Positions 802 to 31,840 of a stretch of 58,991 nt of DNA are shown here, one piece after another (within the stretch, counting starts at the first letter, position 1; every line of letters starts with the position of its first letter). Location of the stretch: positions 1 to 58,991 of the forward strand of contig CAJODC010000001.1 in NCBI GenBank assembly GCA_905233215.1, written 5' to 3'. This DNA is from an uncultured Synergistales bacterium (GTDB lineage Bacteria > Synergistota > Synergistia > Synergistales > Aminobacteriaceae). Under the pieces are notes generated by a model that saw nothing but the letters and a program-made list of their open reading frames with translations, was not told the DNA's origin and made no database searches. Made by a program: the position numbers and the translations under genes.

Positions 802-1404
802 CTAAACGACTTTCAGCAACTGATTCAGTTTGTGGCAGTCATCGCCTGACGTTATTCGGGAGTCAAAATACTTGAATCCGTTGCGGGCGTAGAAATTCAT
901 CAACGCTTCGTTGTCTTCACATTCAAGAAACACAATCACTCCGCCCAAAAAATATTTTGCCCTGCTTATCGTATCAAGGGCTATTTCAAGCAATTCTGTA
1001 CCGTCAATCCGCTGTTCTTCGGAAAACGCAAAGTTCTTCCCTAATTGTGCGATGAGGTAAGCTGAAGCTGTGTACGTTTCGTTCTCCTCATTGAGTGCGC
1101 TGACCCTTGCTATCTTTCTTGCCATCGACTTGCTGATTCTGTCGGCTCTAATCGTTACAGGCTTCAATGCCAGCGAGAAATACCCGACCAATTCGGCATC
1201 AGTATTTCTGAGAACCAAGTAGGTTACGGACTGGTCTTTCTTCGTGAACTCAACAGCGTTGCGCTTCAGGAAACGTTCTACATCAGGGTTAGGGGGACAC
1301 GAGAAAGACTGTAGCCATTCGTGAAGTTTCTGCTCCCCCATAAAAGTTGCTTTGTTTTTCTCAAGGAAATCTCTGATATTAACTGCTCTATGCTGTTTTA
1401 CCAT
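802..1404 (-). CDS. GNAT-family acetyltransferase, probable toxin of a TA pair
   Basis: A 200-residue protein with the GNAT acetyl-CoA fold. The mid part carries LVGYFSLALKPV (beta 4 region), and the C-terminal part carries FLECEDNEALMNFYARNGF (about residues 158-176), the usual acyl-CoA binding helix and beta 5 of TacT-like GNATs. The first 40 residues (VNIRDFLEKNKATF) are a helical extension. The start ATG overlaps the upstream small ORF by 7 bases, so the two are translationally coupled. Known GNAT toxins such as TacT and AtaT acetylate aminoacyl-tRNA, and their antitoxin gene lies just upstream. Here the partner is 61-63 residues and does not show an obvious ribbon-helix-helix motif. The acetyltransferase call is firm; the toxin role is inferred from size, order and overlap. 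Confidence 0.7.
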   Translation of the reverse strand: MVKQHRAVNIRDFLEKNKATFMGEQKLHEWLQSFSCPPNPDVERFLKRNAVEFTKKDQSVTYLVLRNTDAELVGYFSLALKPVTIRADRISKSMARKIARVSALNEENETYTASAYLIAQLGKNFAFSEEQRIDGTELLEIALDTISRAKYFLGGVIVFLECEDNEALMNFYARNGFKYFDSRITSGDDCHKLNQLLKVV

Positions 1405-28751: not shown

Positions 28752-30740
28752 TCACAACGCTTTCACGGCAAGTTCGACAGCATCGCCACGAGTGATTTTT
28801 TCGGGCAGGGAAATTTCAGTACCTGTCAATTTTTTCACACGGTCGACCAAAGATTTTCTATCAGCATCATTCAGAGGCTCATCGACTCCGAATCGTCCTT
28901 TGTCTTTTCCTTCAGCAATTTCCTTTGCGACTTCGGGGTTGTCAAGCACAGAAGTTATATCATAGCCGACATCATACGATACCATTTCGGGCAGTTTCTC
29001 CGGCTCAAGAAGCCCGTAAAGATTCGCAAGCTGTATAGCTTTGTAGTGCTTGTTTGTCGGTGGAACGTCTGAATACTCACACAGCGACAATTTCACGCCA
29101 GCGTCAAGAAGTGCGTTCTGAACGTGAATTGCTTTGACGTTACGGGGCTGAATGTTCTGTGATACAGCGATTGCCGCCAACGCTCCGGCAGCCTGACCTG
29201 TCATCATAGTAATCGGCTGAAGTCTCAAAGCTCCTGCGACAAGTCTTGACATTGAAAGATTCTTCTCGGCAAGAATAAGGCCGTCAACATTTCGAGGCAG
29301 TAAAATATTCATAGGCACCTGAAAATTTCCGTGCGGTCTGTGTTCGAGAATGAACGATGCTTTTTCGCCTAAGTCCGACTCCATGTCAGCGTCAACGTCA
29401 GTGTGATGAAGATCAAGATGGTAACAGCCGATCGCTATTGAGTCCTGAAACTCACTGCCCTTCCTGCCGTCCTTGTAGCTCAATGAGTTCTCGAAAAGCT
29501 CACGTGATGTCAATGTCTTTTCGCCGACTCCCCTGCGTGACTCTCTGACGTAAGGCACTGGGGGTAAATGACGAGCGATAACTTTCCATTCGTCCGGCAA
29601 ATCTTTCGCTGCTTCCTGTAAGTCGCCGTATTCGTTTTCATCGACCGACCATGACTCGCCGAGTTCGTTCTGAATGTAGTAGATGAAGTGTAATGTCTTG
29701 ATGAGTGCATCACGTTCGAGTCGTTTTCGTGCTGCTCTGTCCTCAAGGTAGTAGACGGGCATTCCGTACTTGTCGCCGAATTTCTGCTGGCCGGGAAAAT
29801 CATTTCCCCAGTTCACTGAACACTTTGAGATGTTGCGCCAATTCTCACGGTCAGCGTCAAAGTAACCGGGCGTGAACGAGTCCGGCAATCCCCTGTAAGC
29901 GTTATGAGTGATGAAATCGACAGGAAGTATTACAGGGTATTCTCCTTTGAAGGTGAAACCGCCTTTTGCGACATAATTCGAGTAATTCACTCTCGCTGCA
30001 TCGTAACCGGGAAGAGGCGATTTAGGCTTGAGGTGTTCGGGGATTCCTTCCGGGTATTTGCGGATTATCGCTGTCCATGTGATGTCCTGAATCATTGCGT
30101 TAGGATTGATGCTGGGGGTGATTGAGTTGCCAGCTCTGTAATCTGCGCCTGCGAGGGGAAGAATATCGCCGTATTCTGTAGCGTCAATGAGGACTTTGCA
30201 TGTGATGCTCTTCATTCCTTCGGGAGTTTTGACGATTACGCTGTTGATTCGGGGTGCTTCGCTTACGCTGTCGCCTGTTACGGAGATGACTTCATCTTTT
30301 CCGACGCCGACAATCTCGGAGTTATAGAGAATGTCGGGAGCGTCCTCGCCTCTGGCCATGTCTTGAAGGATTTTGCGTCCTACGTGGGGTTCAAAGGCTA
30401 AATTTCTGGGGTCCCAATAACTTGTGCCGATAGATTTTCCGCGAGCAGAATAATATTCATCAACCCTGCTGATGAAGTCGGCGTAAATTCCGCTTCTGCT
30501 TGAGGTTGTTGAGAGGTCGTCCATGTTGGCGACTCCTGCCGCTATTGCCTGACCTCCCAGCATCGGCGAAGGCTCAACAACTAGAACGTACGCTCCCATT
30601 GAGGCTGCCTGAATCGCTGCGGAGATTCCTCCCGTGCCTGCTCCGGCTACGATGATGTCATAATTGTCCCTGACATCGAAGGCATGAGCGGCTGTGATTG
30701 TGAGAATGAGAATGAGTGACGAAAGAAATATTTTTTTCAT
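28752..30740 (-). CDS. exported FAD-dependent oxidoreductase with SLH-like C-terminal tail
   Basis: A 662-residue protein. It starts at ATG 30740 with signal peptide MKKIFLSSLILILTITAAHA, so it works outside the cytoplasm. The FAD site is YDIIVAGAGTGGISAAIQAA (about 26-45) followed by EPSPMLGGQAIA; a middle domain has NYVAKGGFTFKGE and a second FAD strand QPITMMTGQAAGALAAIAVS near residue 500. It belongs to the FAD-dependent oxidoreductase group seen in sugar- and carboxylate-oxidising enzymes of anaerobes. The last 80 residues (TRGDAVELAVKAL end) resemble an S-layer homology unit that could hold it to the wall or outer membrane. Substrate unknown. A long leader or structured RNA locus follows upstream at 30.8 kb. 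Confidence 0.85.
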   Translation of the reverse strand: MKKIFLSSLILILTITAAHAFDVRDNYDIIVAGAGTGGISAAIQAASMGAYVLVVEPSPMLGGQAIAAGVANMDDLSTTSSRSGIYADFISRVDEYYSARGKSIGTSYWDPRNLAFEPHVGRKILQDMARGEDAPDILYNSEIVGVGKDEVISVTGDSVSEAPRINSVIVKTPEGMKSITCKVLIDATEYGDILPLAGADYRAGNSITPSINPNAMIQDITWTAIIRKYPEGIPEHLKPKSPLPGYDAARVNYSNYVAKGGFTFKGEYPVILPVDFITHNAYRGLPDSFTPGYFDADRENWRNISKCSVNWGNDFPGQQKFGDKYGMPVYYLEDRAARKRLERDALIKTLHFIYYIQNELGESWSVDENEYGDLQEAAKDLPDEWKVIARHLPPVPYVRESRRGVGEKTLTSRELFENSLSYKDGRKGSEFQDSIAIGCYHLDLHHTDVDADMESDLGEKASFILEHRPHGNFQVPMNILLPRNVDGLILAEKNLSMSRLVAGALRLQPITMMTGQAAGALAAIAVSQNIQPRNVKAIHVQNALLDAGVKLSLCEYSDVPPTNKHYKAIQLANLYGLLEPEKLPEMVSYDVGYDITSVLDNPEVAKEIAEGKDKGRFGVDEPLNDADRKSLVDRVKKLTGTEISLPEKITRGDAVELAVKAL

Positions 30741-30777
30741 GGCTTGACTCCTTTGAGTGATTTTGTGATTGAGATTG

Positions 30778-30812
30778 TAGCAGACTATGTGAATTTTATC
30801 GTCTGCTATAAT
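30778..30812 (+). promoter_or_regulatory. extended -10 promoter overlapped by an inverted repeat (possible operator)
   Basis: A perfect 8-base inverted repeat TAGCAGAC (30778-30785) / GTCTGCTA (30801-30808) with a 15-base spacer overlaps TGCTATAAT (TATAAT 30807-30812). This reads as a regulator site over a promoter that drives the structured small-ORF locus. Confidence 0.55.
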
Positions 30813-30894
30813 AACCTCACGAGGGAGTCCCAGATGAGAAACAGGGCTCATTGTCGAAACGGGGAGCCGCCCTGTGGAATTGAGGTGCAACGCT

Positions 30895-31011
30895 ATGGCT
30901 AAAGCTAAGCGCAAAACCAATAGAAAACAGCGGCGCAGTCTCTTTTACCGAATTGACATAATCGCCGCTGCTATCTACTGGGTTGTGAGGACCATCCTCT
31001 TATTCTTCTAA
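30895..31011 (+). CDS. small basic single-helix membrane protein, unassigned
   Basis: A 38-residue ORF with an excellent start: GAGGT and an 8-base spacer before ATG. The N-terminal half is strongly basic (MAKAKRKTNRKQRRS); the C-terminal half is one hydrophobic helix (IDIIAAAIYWVVRTILLFF). It is too short for most gene finders. The shape recalls small membrane peptides such as type I toxins or regulators of transporters, although most type I toxins put their charge at the C-terminus. It lies within a structured transcript with its own promoter and terminator. No homologue is claimed. Confidence 0.55.
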   Translation: MAKAKRKTNRKQRRSLFYRIDIIAAAIYWVVRTILLFF

Positions 31012-31048
31012 TGGTCAGCCCTTGAAATCGTTGGGCTAATTCACAGCG

Positions 31049-31090
31049 TTAGGGGTCATGCTAGCTCCTTCACCGCTGCCCCTATTTTAT
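31049..31090 (+). terminator. terminator of the 30.8-31.1 kb locus
   Basis: TAGGGG pairs with CCCCTA and is followed by TTTTAT. An alternative CAGCG/CGCTG stem competes with it, so conditional termination is possible. Confidence 0.55.
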
Positions 31091-31129
31091 CACCAAAACC
31101 GCCGAAACGTTAGCACCTAAAAATTCTTT

Positions 31130-31840
31130 TTAGTCCTTTCGTTTACCGAACAATCTTATCAGGTACAGGAACAAGTTAATGAAGTCCAAATACAGCGACA
31201 AAGCACCGATTACCGCAATTTTCCCGGTGGTCTCTTCATCGCTCATGCCATAGGCAAGTGATTTAATCTTCGCAGTGTCATACGCTGTCAATCCCATGAA
31301 GATTATTATTCCCATTACGCTTATGACAGTTTCAGCCATCGTTGAGCCGACAAACAGGTTAATCACCATCGCTATAATCAGTCCCCAAAGTCCCATTCTC
31401 AGGAAACTTCCCCATGATGTTATGTCGCTCTTCGTGTACAAAGCATACAGGCTCATCACTCCGAACATTCCAGCCGTTGACAGGAAAGCAGTGTATACGC
31501 TCTCTTGAGTGTAGACCAGAAGAACAACCGAACATGTTATCCCGTTCAAGACACTGTAAAGCCCGAAAAGCATCAGTGATGTTGAGGCCGAATGCTTCTG
31601 AATTGTCGCGCTCAGGTAGATTACCAGTCCGATTTCAGCAACCGCCACGATGATTATCGGTGCTTGAGAGCCGAAAAATGTTCTGATCATCGCAGGGCTT
31701 GACACTGTGAACCACGCTGTAACGGCCGTGAGTATCAAACCGAGTGCCATATACTGATAAACTTTTCGGAAAAGCGCATTCACCGCTTCAACCGTATCAA
31801 TTCCGGCAAAAGCTGGCGTGTATGATCCATATTGAGACAT
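31130..31840 (-). CDS. Bax inhibitor-1/YccA family membrane protein
   Basis: A 236-residue protein with seven hydrophobic helices and the BI-1 pattern: FRKVYQYMALGLILTAVTAW near the N-terminus and TAYDTAKIKSLAYG and ALSLYLDFINLFLYLIRLFG near the C-terminus, where the two conserved Asp of the calcium-leak pH sensor lie. Bacterial BI-1 proteins are Ca2+/H+ leak channels or FtsH modulators. Length is typical (about 230). Monocistronic; upstream TGCTAAAAT gives a likely extended -10. Its stop lies 35 bases past the small-ORF locus terminator region, facing it. Confidence 0.93.
   Translation of the reverse strand: MSQYGSYTPAFAGIDTVEAVNALFRKVYQYMALGLILTAVTAWFTVSSPAMIRTFFGSQAPIIIVAVAEIGLVIYLSATIQKHSASTSLMLFGLYSVLNGITCSVVLLVYTQESVYTAFLSTAGMFGVMSLYALYTKSDITSWGSFLRMGLWGLIIAMVINLFVGSTMAETVISVMGIIIFMGLTAYDTAKIKSLAYGMSDEETTGKIAVIGALSLYLDFINLFLYLIRLFGKRKD

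Follow-up and report, generated by a model that had tools for sequence, protein, structure and literature searches.

A candidate type I toxin-antitoxin family of rumen and gut Synergistota whose mRNA leader covaries with its own terminator loop

What is encoded by the short stretch of DNA between the genes for an FAD-dependent oxidoreductase (28752-30740, minus strand) and a Bax1-I family protein (31130-31840, minus strand), which lies within the 58,991 nucleotides of Synergistales DNA analysed here as a whole (the window) and also has greA among its neighbours? A first-pass annotation of the letters had described an 8-base inverted repeat over an extended -10 promoter, a structured RNA, a Shine-Dalgarno sequence, a 38-codon ORF and a terminator, had assigned them to no RNA or protein family and had offered three options, namely a regulatory RNA with a peptide, a small membrane regulator or a type I-like toxin. 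Direct reading finds every one of these elements in place. The sense promoter TGCTATAAT (30804-30812, plus strand) has the form TGnTATAAT, which is conserved across the copies described below; a consensus scan found no -35 box, and transcription would start near 30819. The terminator (31050-31088, plus strand), likewise conserved across copies, consists of a TAGGGG/CCCCTA stem with an inner AGC/GCT and an apical loop at 31066-31074, followed by U residues; the GC-rich hairpin proper spans 31050-31084. The positions of promoter and terminator predict a sense (toxin) mRNA of approximately 270 nt (30819-31088, plus strand), which folds only moderately better than shuffled sequences (z -2.2).

Leader, ORF, terminator and promoter are all found again in the majority of genomes of the same genus, and the module is thus conserved far beyond chance. 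A DNA search gave matches in 15 of 24 other genomes of the genus, often at several sites per genome, whereas the 16 genomes searched from the order's other families gave none. With a covariance model built on the leader (R1), 38 of the 43 genus genomes proved to contain the module, with 1-10 copies per genome that are often arranged in tandem around 300-450 nt apart; the model also reached five genera of the family. A wider model (R2) recovered copies in 40 of the 43 genus genomes and in 7 of 63 genera of the phylum, two of them belonging to another family. Outside the window's genus, the copies are scattered over six other genera in two families. The impression that the locus falls into no known family was borne out: Rfam covariance models, including the type I antitoxins held there, gave only chance-level matches, none of them near the gathering score, and the peptide had no match above noise in Pfam (seven diverse peptides), PHROGs, NCBIfam or the PDB, nor was a sequence match to Fst/Ldr, Ibs, TisB or the other type I toxins of Pfam and NCBIfam found. 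The module was not found in phages and plasmids (tblastn) or in IMG/VR (DNA pattern), and nothing therefore suggests that phages or plasmids carry it. The stretch in the window is a single representative of a module that is widespread in rumen and gut Synergistota and had not been described before. Pattern matches in other phyla fitted the leader profile poorly and were taken as chance.

The ORF (30895-31011, plus strand) encodes the 38-residue peptide MAKAKRKTNRKQRRSLFYRIDIIAAAIYWVVRTILLFF, which has a basic N-terminus and one predicted hydrophobic helix, and is preceded by the conserved Shine-Dalgarno sequence GAGGTG (30882-30887, plus strand), most commonly found as GAGGTGA across the copies. 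The 124 reading frames of the family are 38-53 residues long (median 46), the one in the window being the shortest. They have in common a K/R-rich N-terminus with a median net charge of +8 over 22 residues, which in most frames includes a KKQRR-like motif, and a single hydrophobic segment with (I)DWFTR or LWDRF at its end; the hydrophobic 15-mer has a median KD of 2.26, and a membrane helix is predicted from this hydropathy. The family stays within the bounds used for type I toxins, i.e., fewer than 60 amino acids and one membrane helix (38-53 residues; helix from hydropathy). Computed on pairs that are 72-95% identical, the median dN/dS is 0.26, with dN below dS in 99% of the pairs; the peptide is under purifying selection. 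In the window copy, a TAA at the position of the relatives' Asp removes around six residues, and the usual C-terminal (I)DWFTR is missing; the ortholog in genome G004 shares this stop and carries a frameshift in addition. In a minority of the copies, the reading frame is shifted, truncated or without a start codon and the RNA parts persist; where a shift falls in a homopolymer of a draft genome, it could stem from an error of assembly.

Covariation reveals a pseudoknot in the leader, in which GATGAG/CTCATC interlocks with ACAGGG/CCCTGT. In the window copy, stem 1 is made of GATGAG (30833-30838) and CTCATT (30847-30852), stem 2 of ACAGGG (30841-30846) and CCCTGT (30870-30875), and a mini-hairpin CGG-GGAG-CCG (30860-30869) is located inside stem 2, all on the plus strand. 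Compensatory changes support stem 1 (6/6 pairs in 55 diverse copies), as do the 23 close copies, and stem 2 covaries as well. Among the 23 close copies, the three helices are paired in 96% of the cells, with 6 doubly changed pairs versus 1.4 in shuffles; the 55 diverse copies show 60 doubly changed cells versus 18 ± 4.4, and in one subfamily CACGG/CCGTG replaces CAGGG/CCCTG. One copy (L023:708-823) has a much longer stem instead of the small CGG-GGAG-CCG hairpin, and another (L024, around 850-945, minus strand) is a remnant in which the leader is fused to the terminator tail and the entire ORF is deleted.

A second interaction links the two ends of the mRNA. The sequence GAGGGAG at the 5' end (30821-30827, plus strand) can form seven pairs, one of them G-U, with CTCCTTC in the terminator loop (31065-31071, plus strand), and in divergent copies leader and loop change together: GAGGAAG/CTTCCTC, GAGGGG/CCCCTC, GAAGGGG/CCCCTTC, GAAGAGG/CCTCTTC, GAGAGG/CCTCTC, CGGTGGG/CCCACCG, GGAGAGG/CCTCTCC, GAGGGAG/CTCCCTC and GAGAGAG/CTCTCTC. 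With the terminator loop placed by folding alone before leader and loop were matched, an exact complement of a 6-mer of the own loop was present in 91 of 131 leaders, versus 29.0 ± 4.1 after swapping (maximum 43 in 1000). When the leader was scanned against windows taken from as far as 140 nt upstream of the stop codon through to the 3' end, leader positions +0 to +13 stood out with the region located 30-49 nt downstream of the stop (z 11.2), the next independent region reaching 4.1. RNAduplex energies were a weak test of this pairing because a G-C-rich background dominates them; the exact loop matching is decisive, and the covariation shows a pairing between the start of the mRNA and the loop at the tip of its own terminator. 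The closure may extend further, as a weaker complementarity between CCCGG in the leader (+4 to +24) and CCGGG after the stop gives 57 versus 39.6 cases at 5 nt, approximately 3.5 sd over swapped pairs and with no excess at 6-7 nt, which is only suggestive. A second copy in the window's genome (L105, G000:C30:11282-11380) has the leader GAAGAGG and the loop CTCCCTC, which form 4/7 pairs, as if the copy had undergone recombination or were in decay. The antisense -10 box, of the kind described next, is intact in this copy and lies well apart from the terminator.

The plus-strand sequence directly past the terminator is ATTnTAnCAnA, i.e., TnTGnTAnAAT on the minus strand, which is an extended -10 element with a TRTG feature. 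In the window, this putative antisense promoter, TG-A-TAAAAT (31084-31092, minus strand), overlaps the terminator tail. A match at seven or more of eight positions was found in 97.8% of 132 copies; dinucleotide shuffles reach 6.1%, and a control region further downstream reaches 10.9%. In approximately 20 copies, the box is located 9-25 nt beyond the terminator helix, and it is therefore not simply the U-tract. The predicted antisense RNA (antitoxin) of around 160 nt (30918-31077, minus strand) is complementary to the terminator hairpin and to two thirds of the ORF, counted from the 3' end. Its start would fall within the terminator stem, and its 5' hairpin would be the complement of the terminator loop. 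Its predicted 3' end coincides with a hairpin inside the ORF (30914-30984), which has 22-nt arms (30914-30935 and 30963-30984) in the window, is far more stable than synonymous recodings (-24.8 versus -15.7 kcal/mol), and on the minus strand reads CGCCGCTG followed by the U-tract TTTTCTATT. The antisense-terminator score is -18.1, versus -11.3 in the synonymous recodings, and hairpin and U-tract are present in 117 of 132 copies. The sense strand is lower in energy in 98 of the 132 copies, with more G-U pairs on the sense side; the hairpin is therefore probably also selected in the mRNA, perhaps mainly so, and is only likely to serve as the intrinsic terminator of the antisense RNA.

The comparative evidence favours the type I-like toxin among the three options offered by the first-pass annotation, and it bears out the peptide, the structured RNA and the promoter described there. 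The module is most plausibly a chromosomal, multicopy type I toxin-antitoxin system of a new family (probability roughly three in four), a reading that draws on four features missing from the earlier account, namely the promoter on the opposite strand, the pairing of the two mRNA ends, the leader pseudoknot and the existence of a family with many copies. The sense RNA would encode a membrane-active toxin of 38-53 residues with a K/R-rich N-terminus and one membrane helix. Pairing between 5' end and terminator loop, together with the pseudoknot, would keep the full-length mRNA translationally poor, and 3' trimming would remove the terminator loop and thereby activate the mRNA, as in hok and aapA. 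That trimming would release the Shine-Dalgarno sequence is proposed by analogy, since in nested folds the accessibility of this sequence showed no clear gain upon removal of the 3' end (0.38 vs 0.42). From the promoter just past the terminator, an antisense RNA would be made; its 5' hairpin, exactly complementary to the terminator loop, could kiss this loop, and the duplex could then grow across the 3' UTR into the C-terminal codons, thereby blocking expression or triggering decay by RNase III. The window copy itself speaks against the reading in two respects, the G-U pair in the long-distance interaction and the truncated peptide, and is a variant of the family; the 4/7 pairs of the other copy in its genome also count against it. 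The RNA plan is retained with another peptide in a second family of the order (f4): in L194, the leader GGAGAGG, the loop CCTCTCC and a reverse TGCTATAAT flank the peptide MARKKSLQMALWIALLALLLGAATRFLEALVDLIRIVL, and L193 and L195 follow the same plan. The f4 peptide is different, basic and has one predicted helix; a type I system would be expected to keep its RNA plan while the peptide turns over. Whether a single terminator loop performs three jobs, i.e., ends the toxin mRNA, closes it to the 5' end and acts as the recognition loop for the antisense RNA, with the -10 box in the terminator tail, in an order-wide Synergistota family in which loop and leader drift together as the peptide is replaced and thus give rise to many potentially insulated copies per genome, is rated as an even call.

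Other explanations were weighed against the same data. A non-toxic, physiological small membrane protein made from a structured, antisense-controlled mRNA would account for a conserved peptide under purifying selection, and is nevertheless judged unlikely: many copies of nearly identical plan per genome and tandem arrays do not fit it, frameshifted and start-less copies are retained with intact RNA parts, and fold-back combined with antisense control is the pattern of type I toxins, unlike that of a housekeeping peptide. If the locus were mainly a regulatory RNA, riboswitch-like or acting in trans as an sRNA, with a secondary role for the peptide, the conserved, pseudoknotted leader and the copies with broken ORFs would be explained; the dN/dS of 0.26 over 124 pairs, the mostly intact ORFs, the leader's own ORF and terminator behind it and the absent Rfam match make this clearly improbable. 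A cationic antimicrobial peptide, similar to leaderless bacteriocins and under antisense control, fits the size, the positive charge and the single helix, yet neither a transporter nor an immunity gene adjoins the window copy (the oxidoreductase, Bax1-I and GreA genes are found there), and internal toxins are the ones that typically show strong control by RNA in cis combined with 5'-3' pairing, which renders this origin very improbable.

The last alternative concerns the promoter region, where the first-pass annotation had taken an operator-like repeat, and hence a regulated promoter, as the mark of significance. The 8-base arms TAGCAGAC (30778-30785) and GTCTGCTA (30801-30808) sit within a 15-nt inverted repeat (87%) that spans the promoter, as expected if a repressor bound there. 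However, the halves of the repeat are extended -10 boxes in opposite directions, the plus-strand TGCTATAAT facing the minus-strand TGCTACAAT (30774-30782), which probably serves the FAD oxidoreductase gene. At two orthologous sites, the arms drift, and it is the boxes TGnTACAAT (minus strand) and TGnTATAAT (plus strand) rather than the palindrome that persist; in module copies at other loci, the inverted repeat is missing. For these reasons, it is not part of the conserved module, and a repressor-bound operator is hardly credible. The repeat is most likely the trace of two overlapping promoters from which the oxidoreductase gene and the module are transcribed in opposite directions. Conservation in related genomes, which had been named as the point on which the locus would stand or fall, thus holds for the ORF and the stems and fails for the inverted repeat.

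A type I toxin-antitoxin module of this architecture can be compared with several known systems. In hok/sok, the 5' end of the mRNA pairs with the 3' end (tac/fbi), and a membrane peptide is placed under antisense control; the Synergistota module has a similar 5'-3' pairing, a predicted membrane peptide and a presumed antisense control. Sok targets the 5' leader (mok region), whereas the Synergistota antisense RNA is not placed at the 5' leader, and the seven diverse peptides had no match to the Hok family (Pfam HOK_GEF). In txpA/RatA and bsrG/SR4 of Bacillus, the toxin mRNA is overlapped at its 3' end by the antisense RNA, with RNase III decay as the likely route. The predicted Synergistota antisense RNA overlaps the 3' end of its mRNA as well; the peptides, however, are unrelated, the antisense promoter overlaps the toxin terminator itself, and the 5' end covaries with the loop. 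RatA is treated together with msoT1/msoA1 of Microcystis, a type I system described in 2025 outside Proteobacteria, Firmicutes and Tenericutes (PMC12390103). The Synergistota module shares this position outside the three phyla, but belongs to another phylum, has another peptide (msoT1 has two predicted helices) and was found by RNA conservation, in contrast to msoT1, which was found by protein features. In aapA/IsoA of Helicobacter and other Epsilonproteobacteria, the full-length aapA mRNA is closed by a 5'-3' interaction and remains untranslated until its 3' end is trimmed (PMC6733600). Multicopy chromosomal loci, a short basic one-helix peptide, a primary mRNA closed by 5'-3' interaction and a cis-antisense RNA from its own promoter, which is predicted here, are common to both. 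However, IsoA lies opposite the ORF, whereas the Synergistota antisense promoter is located 3' of the terminator rather than inside the ORF; the AapA interaction sequesters the Shine-Dalgarno sequence, whereas in Synergistota it is the apical loop of the terminator that engages the very start of the mRNA; and the Synergistota leader has a pseudoknot. No sequence relation was found between the two. By its anatomy, the module would work like aapA/IsoA and hok/sok, and the placement of its antisense RNA is similar to that of the Bacillus systems with 3' overlap; by sequence, it is a member of none of these families.

Type I systems have been stated to be known only from Proteobacteria, Firmicutes and Tenericutes, with Cyanobacteria added in 2025 (PMC12390103), and a search of the open literature found no paper linking Synergistota with type I toxins; the family would thus add a phylum. 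It also suggests RNA covariation as a route to type I loci whose peptides are so short that homology searches fail. Approximately 150 natural variants with covarying leader and loop pairs provide a data set on the joint evolution and specificity of fold-back inhibition and antisense recognition. At one locus (L053; G041 contig C147:5985-7422), five copies are arranged in tandem and have leader and loop sequences that are mostly unlike each other, hinting at selection against cross-talk between neighbouring copies.
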